This document shows, in pieces, positions 17,198-23,536 of a DNA stretch of 64,000 bases; the first letter of the stretch is position 1, and each line of letters starts with the position of its first letter. Below the pieces are notes generated by a model. That model was not told where the DNA came from and made no database searches. It saw only the letters and a program-made list of their open reading frames with translations. The translations under genes were made by a program, and so were the position numbers. The DNA comes from Spartobacteria bacterium. Its GTDB lineage: Bacteria; Verrucomicrobiota; Verrucomicrobiia; Chthoniobacterales; UBA10450. The stretch is taken from the NCBI GenBank assembly GCA_003167555.1, contig PMSN01000003.1, forward strand, positions 265,046 through 329,045. The letters run 5' to 3'.

Positions 17198-17240
17198 ATG
17201 GGGCGGATGGCGGAAATGCCATCCGCCCCATTGTTTTTTG
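17198..17240 (+). terminator. Strong rho-independent terminator after the TonB-dependent receptor
   Basis: A perfect 14-base-pair stem (17198-17211 with 17218-17231, core GGGGCGGATGGC) with a 6-base loop, followed by TTGTTTTTTG. It lies 23 bases after the receptor stop codon and isolates that gene from the next one. Confidence 0.93.
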
Positions 17241-17332
17241 TCCCAGAAAGAGCAAACTGCCAGGATTCACCCGGTGGTTCTGCGGCTTGGATCGAACTTG
17301 TCTTTGCGAGCAGTTTGAATTATCAAACGAGA

Positions 17333-19066
17333 ATGGCGACGCGGGCATTACCGGCAGTGAAGATACCCGAGGAGAGACCGCGCAGCCGCAACCAAGCGGC
17401 CTCGGCCTCGCCGAAATCGTCACCGTGGATTCTGGATCGCTGGCGGGATTTGGTCCTCTTTGTTGGGACGCCCGTTTTGCTGATCCCGATCTTCACCGCG
17501 GCTCAAGCGCGGTGGAGCGCGCAGGATATTTTCCTTTTTGTGGGGGCCTTCGGCGCCATGGGTCATCATTTGCCGGGCATGATTCGGGCCTATGGCGATC
17601 GAGCGTTGTTCGACCGTTTCAAGGTTCGATTCGTTGTCGCGCCACTGTCCATCCTGGCGGTGTGCGTCTGGTCCTCTATCTACGACATACAGGCGGTGCA
17701 ACTGGTGGCGATGGCGTGGGGAATCTGGCATGGGATGATGCAGACCTACGGGTTTTGCCGGATTTACGATGCGAAGGCTGCTGCCCGGGCCGCGATCCGA
17801 GCCCGAGTGGATTTGGCGCTTTGTTTTGCGTGGTTCTCTGCCGCCGTGCTGCTCTCCCCGATGCGTTTCAGGACTTTGCTCGAGTTGTACTATGAGAGCG
17901 GCGGTCCGGTCGTCGCAGCCGCAGCCGTCGCCGCGATTCGCATGGCGGTGGTGGTCGCCCTAGGAGTCGTGACAGTTGTCTTCTTGTGGCGACAGTGGAG
18001 TGATTGGCGCGCAGCCCGTGGGGCCAGTCCCGTGAAGATAACGCTCCTCGTCAGCAGTATTGCCTTTTGGTGGTATTGCAATAACGGCGTCCAAAATATC
18101 CTGGTCGGCATCGCTCTCTTCGAGGTGTTTCATGATGTGCAATATCTTGCCATCGTCTGGATCTATAATCGGACCCGTGTGGAGCGCGACAAGACCATTG
18201 GTGGATTTATGCGCTTCGTGTTTCGACGCAGTGGGGCGCTGATCGGAGTGTACGTGGGCTTGGTTTTGGCCTATGGGGCAATCGGGTTGACCCAATCCGC
18301 CGTTACCGCCGAATGGATCCGGCATGGTTTGATAGGCATAGTGACCGCCTCCGCGCTGTTGCATTTTTATTACGACGGATTCATCTGGAAAGTCCGCGAA
18401 ACGCAAACGCGCAACATGCTGGGAATCGAAGGGGCTGGGGCCGCTGCCTTGGCATCACCTCGGCTTTTCCCGGCGTGGGTTCGGCACAGCTTGCGTTGGG
18501 CGGCCTTGTTGATTCCATTTGGAGCGCTCTGTTCGGCACAACTCGTCGGCCGCGTGGTGCCGCCGCTTGAGCGGACCGAGAAAGTTGCGGAAGTTCTGCC
18601 TCAGGATGCGCAGGCCCAGCTAAACTATGGCAAGGCTTTGCACGCCGCGGGACGCGTGGAGGAGGCGGTCAGCAGATACGAGTTCGCAATCCGTCGCAAT
18701 CCCTCCTTGGCTGAGGCCGAATTTTATCTGGGCCTGGCTAAGAAGGATTTGGGTGATTTGGATGGGGCAGCCGAACACTACAAACGCTCGCTGCTGCTCG
18801 ACCCGAAGAGCGCAAAAGCCGAGTCAAATTTGGCTGGCGTCCTCCTTACAATGGGCTTGCGGGCTGAAGCCCGGCAGCATTACGAACGTAGCCTGTCTTT
18901 GAATCCCGGTCTTCAGATCGCCCACAAAGAATTAGCGGATCTGCTTTGTGCCGCGGGCGAATATGAGTCGGCCGTGGCTCATTATGAACAAGCGTTGCGC
19001 ATTCAGCCGGATTTCCGCGAAGCGAAGGAAAACCTGGATTTTGCGCGGACGTTAGTGGGGCACTAG
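17333..19066 (+). CDS. Multi-helix membrane protein with buried histidines and C-terminal TPRs
   Basis: A 577-residue protein of unrecognised family. Residues ~38-420 carry 8-9 membrane helices; residues ~430-575 are four to five TPR units (for example AQAQLNYGKALHAAGRVEEAV, AEFYLGLAKKDLGDLDGAAEHY). Several histidines sit within or next to helices in conserved-looking contexts: GAFGAMGHHLPGM (His78/79), GIWHGMMQTYGF (His133), FEVFHDVQYLAIVW (His267) and LLHFYYDGFIWK (His344). This pattern could bind a metal, as in Brp/Blh-type or other di-metal membrane oxygenases, but that is a guess. The start is ATG 17333, because longer frames begin inside the terminator hairpin. The downstream region has no further gene on this strand for ~600 bases except one small candidate. 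Confidence 0.7.
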   Translation: MATRALPAVKIPEERPRSRNQAASASPKSSPWILDRWRDLVLFVGTPVLLIPIFTAAQARWSAQDIFLFVGAFGAMGHHLPGMIRAYGDRALFDRFKVRFVVAPLSILAVCVWSSIYDIQAVQLVAMAWGIWHGMMQTYGFCRIYDAKAAARAAIRARVDLALCFAWFSAAVLLSPMRFRTLLELYYESGGPVVAAAAVAAIRMAVVVALGVVTVVFLWRQWSDWRAARGASPVKITLLVSSIAFWWYCNNGVQNILVGIALFEVFHDVQYLAIVWIYNRTRVERDKTIGGFMRFVFRRSGALIGVYVGLVLAYGAIGLTQSAVTAEWIRHGLIGIVTASALLHFYYDGFIWKVRETQTRNMLGIEGAGAAALASPRLFPAWVRHSLRWAALLIPFGALCSAQLVGRVVPPLERTEKVAEVLPQDAQAQLNYGKALHAAGRVEEAVSRYEFAIRRNPSLAEAEFYLGLAKKDLGDLDGAAEHYKRSLLLDPKSAKAESNLAGVLLTMGLRAEARQHYERSLSLNPGLQIAHKELADLLCAAGEYESAVAHYEQALRIQPDFREAKENLDFARTLVGH

Positions 19067-19677
19067 CGCCCCCGGATCTCGGGAAAACGCAACACCCATG
19101 CAATTCGGTGCCCCGCTCTGGCACGACCACTGCTGATAATAGCCATACTCAGTATGATTTTAATCAGCATCAACCCTTTCGCCTTCAAGAAGATCTTCCT
19201 GCTTGTGGCCGCCCTGCTCGGCGTTTCTTCGGCTATTTGCTTCGCCGATCCGCTCTTTATGAGCACGCGTTTCGCCTCGCGCGATCATCAATCGCATCGG
19301 TTTTCGCCGACCATTCTGTCCGCCACCGTTAAGACCGAGCAGCCGTTCTTCGCTAGTGCAAGGGACACGTCTCATGATTCTACGATCAACTGGGTGGCGT
19401 GCCGCCCTGAATAGCGAAGCGCTTCTCGTTGCTGGGGAATCGACCTAGGCACTTTCCGCTTCCCGTAACAGTACTGAGCTGCCACCTCTCGATCGCCGAG
19501 CACACCGCCATCTCTGCGATGGGGAGAACGCCGTGAAAAAAAGAGAGTAATATCTTTTGCTCTGTGTCAGAATCTTGGCCGAATTGGAAGAGGCCGAAAA
19601 TAATGATCGACCTTGGAAGATTTTTATTGCGGAAAAAAAACAAACGGTCTACTATCGTTTTTGTGGATATGGAAATT
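19067..19677. other. 611-base region of low coding content
   Basis: Between the membrane-TPR gene and the discoidin-like gene. It holds one small candidate gene (19154-19414, listed separately). From 19415 to 19677 I see no gene, only AT-rich leader-like sequence before 19678 (runs of A near 19530 and 19632) that may contain the promoter of the next gene. No riboswitch or repeat was recognised. Confidence 0.5.
19154..19414 (+). CDS. Possible small secreted protein, unknown
   Basis: An 86-residue reading frame whose first ~31 residues look like a signal peptide: short basic n-region (FKK), hydrophobic core IFLLVAALLGVSSAICF and an AD-type cleavage region. The remaining ~55 residues are Ser/Thr/His-rich and have no recognisable domain. 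There is no clear Shine-Dalgarno before the ATG. The strand matches the genes on both sides. The signal-peptide pattern is the only real argument for it, so it may be a chance frame or a decayed gene. Confidence 0.35.
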   Translation: MILISINPFAFKKIFLLVAALLGVSSAICFADPLFMSTRFASRDHQSHRFSPTILSATVKTEQPFFASARDTSHDSTINWVACRPE

Positions 19678-20529
19678 ATGAGAACACCTACCTCGCTCCT
19701 CGGCAAACTCGGTGCATCTGCGTGCGGCCTCTTTCTGGCTGCTTCAAGCGTTCTTGCGTCGGACATCGTCCTGCAAAAAGTCCCGCTGCCGACAGCGCCC
19801 GCATCTGTCAATGCCGCTCGATCCCACATGGGGCCTCAAGCGAGCTTCGCTCTGATCAATTACAACTTGAAGGATATTCAGAGCAAAGCGCACGCGCTTT
19901 ATGTGAGTTCTGGAAATGATCTCAAGGTCGCTAATAACATGATCGATAATCAGGCGTCGACCTCGTTCGGTTTTTCGGTTGAGGATCGTTCGCCGACTGC
20001 TGTGATCGATCTCGGAAAGATCTGCACGTTGCGGCAGCTCTCGGCAATTTATTCAGCCCGCGCCGGCGTCGTCGACTTTTATGTCATGCGATCGCTTCCT
20101 GGCACAAAGGATGGAAGTGCCCCGGAAACGCTGAAAATCGATAGCGATGCGTGGGCGAGCATGAAGAGTGTGGGCGCAGTGATCGACGATGGCACGCAGG
20201 GTCGCGGTTCGATTGAGTTTCCGGCGACGACTGGGCGTTATGTCATGTTGAAGTGGACTCCCGCGACGCACGCCGACAGCGCGTTCACGGTTGCCGAAGT
20301 GACGGCGACTGGTCCAAGCCGCGAAAATCTACTGGCTTCGAACGTTAATTTTTCCAGCAATAGAACCACGTTGGATTCAAAGGATGTGCCCGACTCGAAG
20401 GACGTCGCCGACAGCAAAGACATTCCGGAGGAAGCGCCCCCTGCTCCTCCATCCGAAGGCCCTCCGCCGACACTCCCGGATCCGCCGCCGTTCACGTTCA
20501 TTCCTCAGTTGGTTCCGACCAGCGATTAA
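19678..20529 (+). CDS. Secreted protein with F5/8 type C (discoidin)-like domain and Pro-rich tail
   Basis: A 283-residue exported protein. The start at ATG 19678 gives a clean signal peptide (MRTPTSLLGKLGASACGLFLAASSVLASD) and has GGA 5 bases upstream; longer in-frame starts precede it by 38 codons and spoil the signal. Residues ~85-225 resemble a galactose-binding-like jelly roll: MIDNQASTSFGFS near the start, AVIDLGKICTLRQLSAIYS in the middle and GRYVMLKWTPA near the end, as in F5/8 type C domains that bind carbohydrates or surfaces. A threefold DSKD repeat follows, then a Pro-rich tail (PPPTLPDPPP). It ends before a rho-independent terminator. It probably acts outside the cytoplasm; the ligand is unknown. 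Confidence 0.75.
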   Translation: MRTPTSLLGKLGASACGLFLAASSVLASDIVLQKVPLPTAPASVNAARSHMGPQASFALINYNLKDIQSKAHALYVSSGNDLKVANNMIDNQASTSFGFSVEDRSPTAVIDLGKICTLRQLSAIYSARAGVVDFYVMRSLPGTKDGSAPETLKIDSDAWASMKSVGAVIDDGTQGRGSIEFPATTGRYVMLKWTPATHADSAFTVAEVTATGPSRENLLASNVNFSSNRTTLDSKDVPDSKDVADSKDIPEEAPPAPPSEGPPPTLPDPPPFTFIPQLVPTSD

Positions 20530-20620: not shown

Positions 20621-21901
20621 TCAGAGGTTGTCTTGAATCATTTTGAAGACCGCCGTGTTTTCCAGCGAGCCATGCAAAGCCTCCGCGCCAGGCCCGGCGC
20701 CGAACACGACGACATCATCCACTGTGTTGAGCGCTGAAGGTGCATAAAACGCTCCTGGCTCTTGCGGTGGCTCTGTCGTGGGACTATCCGCCGGCGCAGG
20801 GGAGTGATGCGAAGCGGCCAGTTTCGCCGCACCATACGATTTTCCGCCATTTGGACCGCTCGCCCACGAGAACCACGGATCCCCAGCCGAATTGAATCCG
20901 AGGAGGGCAACACCGCGATCCCTTCGAAACGGGTATCCATTCAAATTCAACCCGCCGATCGCGACATCGCCGCAAACGAAGATAACCGACTTCCCGCCCG
21001 CGTATCTGCGCGCTACTGCAACCGCGCGATCCAATTCCAAAGTCTCGGCCAGAGTATGTTCGGCGTTATTTTTCTCCGCCGCTTTGCGCATCAAGCCGGC
21101 GTCAACGACGAGGAGGTAACCCGCGCGGTTGAATTGAAGAAGCTCAATCGCGCGACGAACCATGTCCGAGAGACTCGGTTGTTCGCTTCGTGCCGCGATT
21201 TGATCCGCGTACGCCAGTTCGCCCGGGCTGAATGCGCCGAAGAGTTTCGGACGTCGCCAGCCCGGAATGGCTTCGAGCTCGGCCTTCGTCCGGACGAGAT
21301 CCACTCCTTTTCGGCGAATCTCCAAAAGCAGGTCGCGCTCGTCCTCGCGATGACCCCCCTTTGACTTTGGTAAAAAATCGTTCGCGCCACCGCCCAAGAT
21401 CAAATCGATCCCGGCGCCGTCCACGATCTGGCGGGCCAGACCGGATTTGTCATTTTCCTCCGTGGTATGCGCGTAGAAAGCGGCCGAAGTCGAGTCCGTG
21501 ATATTTGTGTTCGTGATCAATCCCGTGGCCCTTCCGGCCTCGCGGGCCAGCTCGATTAAATTAGGCAACGGCCTGCCGTCCGCGTCGACGGCGATCAAGC
21601 GATTGTTGACTTTGACGCCCGTCGCCAAAGCAGTTGCGGCGGCGGCTTGGTCGGGCGTCGCGAAGTCATTCGAATAGTTGATAAGCAGAGCCAGGTGCGG
21701 CATCGAATCCAGCGTGAGCGGGTTATCGGCGCCAGCCGCATAGACTCGAGTCGCGGCCAAACGCCCCGGCGACAGTCCTTCGCCGACGAACAGGATGATG
21801 CCGAAGGGTTTCTGGACAACCCAGTGCTGGAAGTAAAAAACGCCGAAGGCCGCGAACACGACCAGGCAGAAAAGCGCGAGGATTTGATTGCGCCATTTCA
21901 T
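20621..21901 (-). CDS. Alkaline-phosphatase-fold protein with a lost active site (predicted pseudoenzyme)
   Basis: A 426-residue relative of PhoA-type alkaline phosphatase with an N-terminal membrane anchor (QILALFCLVVFAAFGVFYF), so it is probably periplasmic. The fold is recognisable: IILFVGEGLSPGRLAATR, AAAATALATGVKVNNRLIAVD, TDSTSAAFYAHTTEEN, SLSDMVRRAIELL and GAGPGAEALHGSLENTAVF. Nearly every catalytic residue differs. Numbering E. coli PhoA: Asp51 is Glu41, nucleophile Ser102 is Gln85, Glu322 is Asp267, Asp327 is Arg272, His331 is Glu276, His370 is Val313, and the His412 position has Asn/Leu. Only Asp153/Thr155 and Asp369 equivalents remain. It therefore should not hydrolyse phosphate esters by the normal route. 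The start is ATG 21901; the longer frame would overlap divergent gpmI. Confidence 0.85.
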   Translation of the reverse strand: MKWRNQILALFCLVVFAAFGVFYFQHWVVQKPFGIILFVGEGLSPGRLAATRVYAAGADNPLTLDSMPHLALLINYSNDFATPDQAAAATALATGVKVNNRLIAVDADGRPLPNLIELAREAGRATGLITNTNITDSTSAAFYAHTTEENDKSGLARQIVDGAGIDLILGGGANDFLPKSKGGHREDERDLLLEIRRKGVDLVRTKAELEAIPGWRRPKLFGAFSPGELAYADQIAARSEQPSLSDMVRRAIELLQFNRAGYLLVVDAGLMRKAAEKNNAEHTLAETLELDRAVAVARRYAGGKSVIFVCGDVAIGGLNLNGYPFRRDRGVALLGFNSAGDPWFSWASGPNGGKSYGAAKLAASHHSPAPADSPTTEPPQEPGAFYAPSALNTVDDVVVFGAGPGAEALHGSLENTAVFKMIQDNL

Positions 21902-21985: not shown

Positions 21986-23536
21986 GTGGCGAAACCGATC
22001 ATCCTCATCATTCGTGATGGCTGGGGCATCAACCCGGGCGGAAAAGAAAAACGCGAAGAAAATGGCGACGCCACTTTGCTCGCGCGCACGCCGTTTCACG
22101 ATCGGCTTTACCGCGATTACCCAGGGGGAAAATTAAGCGCAAGTGGTCTCGACGTCGGGTTGCCGGAAGGACAAATGGGAAACTCCGAGGTGGGTCATCT
22201 CAATCTCGGTGCGGGCCGGATCGTTTATCAAGATCTTACCCGAATCAACAAGGCGATCGCGGACGGAGAACTCGCCCGCAATCCGATCGCGCGTGAAATT
22301 TTCGCCCGCGCCCGAGGTCGCCGGCTCCATTTTCTCGGACTGTTTTCCGATGGGGGAGTGCACAGCCATTACGAACATCTCATCGCGCTCGCGCAGGAGG
22401 CCAAAGCAGCCGGCGTGACGGACATCATGGTGCATGCCTTCACCGATGGCCGCGATACTTCGCCCAAGGGAGGCGCCGGCTTTCTCGAGTCTTGCAGCGC
22501 TAAGCTGGCTGAAGCCGGCGGGCACATCGCGACAGTCGTCGGCCGGTATTTCGCGATGGATCGCGACCGCCGATGGGATCGAACAAAGAAGGCGTGGGAC
22601 GCGATTGTGTTCGGCCGGGGCGAGCTGTGCGAAACAACTCCGGGCGCGGCGGTGCGCGCACATTACGAAAGCGGCGTCACGGACGAATTCATGCCGCCCT
22701 TGATTTTCTCACAGGCCGATGAGCAGCGCATTCGTGATGGCGACACCGTTTTCTTTTTTAATTTTCGCGCGGACCGTGCGCGCCAGCTTTCCCAGGCTTT
22801 TTTGCTGAAGGATTTCGACGGATTCGATCGGGAAGCGCAGCCGCAAGTTCGTTACGTCACGCTCACGCAATACGACGCGACCTATTCCTCTCCCTTCATT
22901 TTTCCGCCGGAGGAACTGAAGAAAATTTTGAGTGAGGTGGCCAGCGAAGCGGGCAAGACGCAACTGCGAATCGCCGAGACGGAAAAATATCCGCACGTGA
23001 CTTATTTTTTTAACGGCGGAATCGAGCGCGCGTTTGCGGGCGAAGAGCGAAAGATTGTGCCCTCACCGAAAGTGGCGACCTACGATCTTCAGCCGGAAAT
23101 GAGCGCGCGCGAAGTCACGGCCGAACTGCTCGCGCGCCTCGACGATTTCGATCTCATCATCTTGAATTTTGCGAATCCCGACATGGTGGGTCACACCGGT
23201 GTCCTCGCGGCCGGCATCAAGGCGGTGGAGACAATCGACGAGTGTGTCTCGCGAATCGTGCCGGAGGTTTTGCGGCGTGGCGGTGCGTGCCTGGTCACGG
23301 CCGATCACGGTAATTGCGAGCAAATGAGGAACTCCGATGGTTCGCCCAACACCGCGCACACCACAAACCTGGTTCACTTCATTTATGTGGCTGAAAACGC
23401 GGCCGGCGTTCGCGTCGAAGACGGCATTCTCGCCGACGTGGCGCCGACGCTACTTTTCCTTCTCGGCCTGCCGCAACCTCGGGAGATGACAGGCCGGAAT
23501 TTGCTTGTCCCGCTCGACGTCAGTTCTTCAGATTAA
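21986..23536 (+). CDS. gpmI: 2,3-bisphosphoglycerate-independent phosphoglycerate mutase
   Basis: Interconverts 3- and 2-phosphoglycerate in glycolysis using two Mn2+ and a phosphoserine. The GTG start at 21986 gives VAKPIILIIRDGWG and 516 residues, the normal size. The metal-binding Asp is in IIRDGWG, the nucleophile Ser67 is in GQMGNSEVGHLNLGAG, and the second metal site includes NPDMVGHTG and VTADHGNCEQM. A longer in-frame start at 21647 would run antisense into the phosphatase-like gene and adds non-family sequence. The gene is divergent from the phosphatase-like gene, with 84 bases between, and overlaps the end of the next minus-strand gene by 9 bases. Confidence 0.97.
   Translation: MAKPIILIIRDGWGINPGGKEKREENGDATLLARTPFHDRLYRDYPGGKLSASGLDVGLPEGQMGNSEVGHLNLGAGRIVYQDLTRINKAIADGELARNPIAREIFARARGRRLHFLGLFSDGGVHSHYEHLIALAQEAKAAGVTDIMVHAFTDGRDTSPKGGAGFLESCSAKLAEAGGHIATVVGRYFAMDRDRRWDRTKKAWDAIVFGRGELCETTPGAAVRAHYESGVTDEFMPPLIFSQADEQRIRDGDTVFFFNFRADRARQLSQAFLLKDFDGFDREAQPQVRYVTLTQYDATYSSPFIFPPEELKKILSEVASEAGKTQLRIAETEKYPHVTYFFNGGIERAFAGEERKIVPSPKVATYDLQPEMSAREVTAELLARLDDFDLIILNFANPDMVGHTGVLAAGIKAVETIDECVSRIVPEVLRRGGACLVTADHGNCEQMRNSDGSPNTAHTTNLVHFIYVAENAAGVRVEDGILADVAPTLLFLLGLPQPREMTGRNLLVPLDVSSSD

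Follow-up and report, generated by a model that had tools for sequence, protein, structure and literature searches.

The window, meaning the whole 64,000-nucleotide stretch of DNA that was analyzed, carries on its minus strand a gene for a pseudo-alkaline phosphatase (pseudo-AP) that begins with an ATG at 21901 and has no internal stops. The encoded protein matches the Pfam family PF00245 (Alk_phosphatase; 195 bits, E value 2.4e-57), and the alignment of residues 35–423 to positions 4–418 of the 423-position profile marks it as a full-length homolog. In a sequence comparison the highest-scoring PDB chains are those of alkaline phosphatases, and AlphaFold2 run on eight sequences (the window protein and seven relatives) returned a pLDDT of 35. 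Judged from sequence profiles, the protein is predicted to have the alkaline phosphatase fold. Its N-terminus has a positively charged tip followed by a hydrophobic stretch (MKWRNQILALFCLVVFAAFGVFYFQHW). Reading of the N-terminal sequence revealed no lipobox and no end resembling a signal-peptidase site, and the segment was therefore read as an N-in signal anchor that looks uncleaved, unlike the secretory signal peptide of Escherichia coli PhoA. A sequence-only reading had described the gene as full length, with a membrane anchor and no stop, and the open reading frame and the profile match agree with this.

Table 1. Features of the pseudo-AP locus (window positions; residue numbers are those of the window protein)
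Feature	Position	Strand	Basis
Pseudo-alkaline phosphatase gene (PF00245), 426 aa	20621..21901	-	ORF, Pfam profile match
N-terminal membrane anchor, residues 2-28, motif KxRNxLLALxCLxxFxxxG	21818..21898	-	Reading of sequence
Glu41 at PhoA Asp51 (Zn2/Mg ligand)	21779..21781	-	Alignment
Asp84-Gln85 at PhoA Asp101-Ser102, nucleophile lost	21647..21652	-	Alignment
Asp136, Thr138 at PhoA Asp153, Thr155, third metal site, kept	21488..21496	-	Alignment
Glu148 at PhoA Arg166, phosphate-binding Arg lost	21458..21460	-	Alignment
Asp267 at PhoA Glu322	21101..21103	-	Alignment
Arg272 at PhoA Asp327, Zn1 ligand lost	21086..21088	-	Alignment
Glu276 at PhoA His331, Zn1 ligand lost	21074..21076	-	Alignment
Asp312-Val313 at PhoA Asp369-His370, His ligand of Zn2 lost	20963..20968	-	Alignment
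Trp346, inactive-lineage signature	20864..20866	-	92/92 order, 24/28 deeper, 6/48 active-type rows
Asn392 at PhoA His412, Zn1 ligand lost	20726..20728	-	Alignment
gpmI (BPG-independent phosphoglycerate mutase), divergent neighbor	21989..23536	+	PF06415, PF01676
Secreted-looking 321-aa protein	19564..20529	+	
Multi-pass membrane protein with C-terminal TPR repeats	17198..19066	+	

E. coli PhoA (strain MG1655) served as the alignment reference for mapping the active-site residues. Like PhoA, the window protein has a full-length profile match and the G-D/E-G, D-x-A-A, and G-G-G motifs; unlike PhoA, it is without the Ser nucleophile (S102 to Q), the phosphate-binding R166 (to E), and four of the five Zn ligands outside D51 (D327 to R, H331 to E, H412 to N, and H370 to V, with D369 alone retained). 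The alignment recovers every substitution named in the sequence-only reading (Gln85, Glu41, Asp267, Arg272, Glu276, Val313, and Asn at the His412 position), to which it adds Glu148 in place of Arg166 and the kept residues Asp84, Asp136, Thr138, Lys273, and Asp312 (PhoA D101, D153, T155, K328, and D369). The H412 position is unambiguous because SAL[H]TANDV of an active-type relative, L189, aligns with SAL[N]TVDDV of the window protein. At the third metal site the changes are conservative, with D51, D153, T155, and E322 represented by E41, D136, T138, and D267.

A protein search of the order Chthoniobacterales gave matches in 181 of 213 genomes, among them 102 of the 112 of good quality, and in 37 of 45 genera. 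For some of the 181 genomes (G002, G022, G086, and G087, for example) the best match is an active-type copy, and for others it is a fragment. The frame is open in nearly all matches listed. Two members of the order with complete 0.9-Mb genomes (G209 and G211; one contig, 99% complete) do not have the gene, which is therefore dispensable for some lifestyles; we take these two to be reduced genomes, perhaps of nematode endosymbionts of the Xiphinematobacter type. Searches with a profile built from 43 diverse members (A2) extended the inactive group to other families of the class (28 rows, termed deeper below), and the N-termini inspected among these rows have an anchor of the same kind as that of the window protein. 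Matches elsewhere in the phylum are of the active type among the loci returned, and a scan of viral contigs with the A2 profile found no relative.

In total, 175 rows were aligned. Two (L121 and L049) were dropped from residue counts as broken or partial, and one group of five rows was counted apart. Counts were taken on 84 and later on 92 rows from the order; neither these nor the 28 deeper rows were sampled at random, being simply the ones retrieved. Among the order rows, 36 retain none of the five Zn ligands, 55 retain one, and one retains two; the corresponding numbers for the deeper rows are 26, 1, and 1. In contrast, all five Zn ligands and R166 are present in each of the 48 active-type PF00245 rows. 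A homolog search had been proposed in the sequence-only reading; in it, loss of active-site residues is seen in 92/92 order and 28/28 deeper rows, versus 48/48 active-type rows with the Zn ligands intact. The best-conserved His column in the order, H145 (PhoA H162), is His in 61/92 rows and is also His in 32/48 active-type rows; therefore, nothing points to a His-based metal site that has moved elsewhere.

Of the 92 order rows, at most four keep R166 (L146 is one), and at least 88 have lost it. This bears on the proposal, made in the sequence-only reading, of a binding or regulatory protein for phosphate-containing ligands. Binding of phosphate or a phospho-ligand without cleavage would fit descent from an enzyme of phosphate esters, but the loss of Arg166 and of both Zn sites counts against it, and the acidic side chains in the window protein's pocket (E148, E41, D84, D267, and E276) would be expected to repel phosphate. 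We consider phospho-ligand binding improbable, and this part of the earlier interpretation is not retained.

The third-metal corner is partly kept in the order, where D101 is present in 91/92 rows, position 51 is acidic in 92/92, position 322 is Asp in 87/92, and T155 is kept in 69/92. Such retention could indicate an enzyme with new chemistry, its pocket remade for a reaction that needs no metal or a single Mg, and passages of PMC10211241 offer a precedent in pseudokinases, some of which proved to have other activities. Against a single conserved catalytic set, pocket residues vary between families of the clade. Position 102 is Q, A, S, T, D, R, G, or E, and position 51 is Asn or Pro in 23/28 deeper rows. 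Ser102 itself is retained in 20/92 order rows that are still without the remaining site, and position 102 is therefore unconstrained rather than uniformly Gln. New chemistry is, in our assessment, unlikely, though it is the alternative to which we give the most weight. The group of five rows counted apart is a second unusual PF00245 group, found in the same order and in one other family of the class (L123:1378-2733, L092:6264-7529, L127:1471-2805, L128:1387-2724, and L217:4187-5509). All five have H331 replaced by N, H370 by S, and H412 by D; the Ser nucleophile, R166, D51, E322, D327, and D369 are kept, and these proteins are possibly active enzymes that use another metal.

A phylogenetic tree of the soluble domain was constructed from 87 of the 175 rows, with the root not inferred by the program. 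All 56 inactive rows fall on one side of a single branch (SH-aLRT 99), and the split between inactive and active-type rows persists when the active-site columns and their neighbors are removed (SH-aLRT 91). One loss followed by vertical descent would be the simplest reading of this tree. Pairwise dN/dS for the pseudo-AP gene, calculated for the window and five relatives, ranges from 0.067 to 0.112 across the 11 pairs (of 15) that gave a finite dS; many dS values exceed 1.5, and the estimates are hence rough, with the two closest pairs (dS of about 1) giving 0.081 and 0.106. For gpmI on the same contigs, all 15 pairs gave 0.050–0.098. A decaying pseudogene or an alignment artifact could account for lost catalytic residues, and we give either almost no credence: dN/dS is near that of gpmI, which refutes decay, the frame is open in nearly all matches listed, and the gene recurs in 37 of 45 genera of the order. 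The pseudo-AP lineage is under strong purifying selection and is neither a private oddity nor decaying. It consists of enzyme homologs that have lost their catalytic residues and are retained under selection, as pseudoenzymes are. Conservation across and beyond the order, these dN/dS values, and a place in one old inactive lineage strongly support the claim of the sequence-only reading that the protein is a pseudoenzyme of the membrane which is being maintained and is not decaying.

The window's own genome (4.2 Mb, 98% complete) was searched for the phosphatase families PF00245, PhoD, and PhoX. The pseudo-AP gene is the only PF00245 gene, and neither PhoD nor PhoX was found. PhoA is a homodimer, and some members of the order also carry an active-type PhoA (for example, L032–L043), so a regulatory subunit that pairs with active PhoA can be imagined. 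With a single PF00245 gene in the genome, a regulatory partnership of this kind is refuted here, barring a PhoA in an unsequenced gap, and we regard it as very unlikely overall. The same inventory also weighs against the regulatory role proposed from sequence, since it contains no active PF00245, PhoD, or PhoX enzyme on which the protein could act.

Gene neighborhoods differ between groups. Divergent gpmI was identified in 19 of 85 loci examined, all within the order, and is divergent in every locus where it was found; two of the loci (L067 and L085) are the same, and several others have flanks too short to show gpmI. In 23/28 loci of the deeper relatives, the next gene downstream in the same orientation is rsmA (as PF00398 in L206), the exceptions being L205 at a contig edge, L200 with rsmA on the other strand, and L187, L188, and L193, which do not show it. 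The inactive gene precedes rsmA in L191, L192, L194–L199, L201–L204, L206–L213, L218, L220, and L221, where the stop-to-stop frames are often 4 bases apart, and in L206:3038-4309 RsmA is fused to a C-terminal NUDIX domain. Sigma-54 or oligopeptide-transporter genes adjoin the pseudo-AP gene in single loci. Since neighbors change between families, they were taken as housekeeping neighbors rather than partners, and gene order names no function. Also in the window are two plus-strand genes listed in Table 1: one encodes the multi-pass membrane protein, and the other encodes the secreted-looking protein, which has a Pro-rich tail and no Pfam match and is near the pseudo-AP gene only within the family (15 loci).

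Conservation in the order is found at positions away from the old chemistry. The anchor residues R4, N5, F16, and G20 are identical in 92/92 order rows, as are R52, G95, A119, R124, L255, G261, Y262, L264, and E281 of the ectodomain and, further, D291, G302, G316, G317, W346, and G349. F16, Y262, and G302 are also present in 28/28 deeper rows and are rare in active-type rows. Mean identity is 0.53 in the anchor versus 0.46 in the ectodomain, and the anchor is the more alike in 688 of 903 pairs. That the membrane helix is the most conserved stretch is only partly true, as it ranks 12th of 45 windows. A Lys or Arg occupies a former Zn-ligand position in 84/92 order, 14/28 deeper, and 0/48 active-type rows. 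In the order, the family of the window protein has Arg at position 327 and most others have Lys or Arg at position 369; the pattern reflects few independent events.

We propose that pseudo-AP is probably a signal-anchored, non-catalytic, metal-free scaffold or receptor of the cell envelope that arose by one ancient loss and has been inherited vertically under purifying selection. The nucleophile, the phosphate-binding Arg, and both Zn sites would have been lost once, before the class diversified. The conserved helix would hold the protein in the inner membrane with the ectodomain folded outside, presumably on the periplasmic side. The former active-site pocket may be stabilized by acidic residues together with the Lys or Arg that replaces Zn, and a fixed positive charge, gained in few independent events, could let this acidic pocket fold without metal. 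A partner may be bound through the conserved positions of the ectodomain and membrane helix. It is the step from a dead enzyme to a scaffold role that we infer here.

The closest active-type proteins by score against the family profile (344–355 bits, the highest of that type) are L189 and L190 from the same class; unlike the window protein, they have all catalytic residues and a signal-peptide-like N-terminus. We found no description of an inactive PF00245 lineage in the open-licence papers searched. In principle, pseudo-AP resembles the pseudophosphatases STYX and MTMR13, treated in passages of PMC10211241 as dead phosphatases kept for binding. These are eukaryotic proteins of unrelated folds, and STYX, in the same passages, is without one key residue, whereas the pseudo-AP lineage is without most of the site.

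The lineage would be a bacterial pseudoenzyme branch within the alkaline phosphatase family, one of great age and vertical inheritance. Intact paralogs occur beside it in some of the same genomes, and the step from enzyme to non-enzyme can therefore be studied. The protein is easily mistaken for a phosphorus-releasing enzyme: at 195 bits against a Pfam cut-off of 24.4, PF00245-based pipelines will call it an alkaline phosphatase. In passages of PMC5615132, phoA in Verrucomicrobia genomes is taken as a sign of phosphorus acquisition, and phoA is counted in soil metagenomes in passages of PMC6919939; both are cited for their use of phoA, with no implication that their genes belong to the inactive lineage. 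In the broader view, which we hold to be about evenly balanced, a whole lineage within the Verrucomicrobiota turned PhoA, in a single event, into an envelope component that is free of metal and anchored in the membrane. This component would have a structural or receptor role, its gene would be near-core in Chthoniobacterales, and many phoA genes of soil Verrucomicrobiota may not encode phosphatases.
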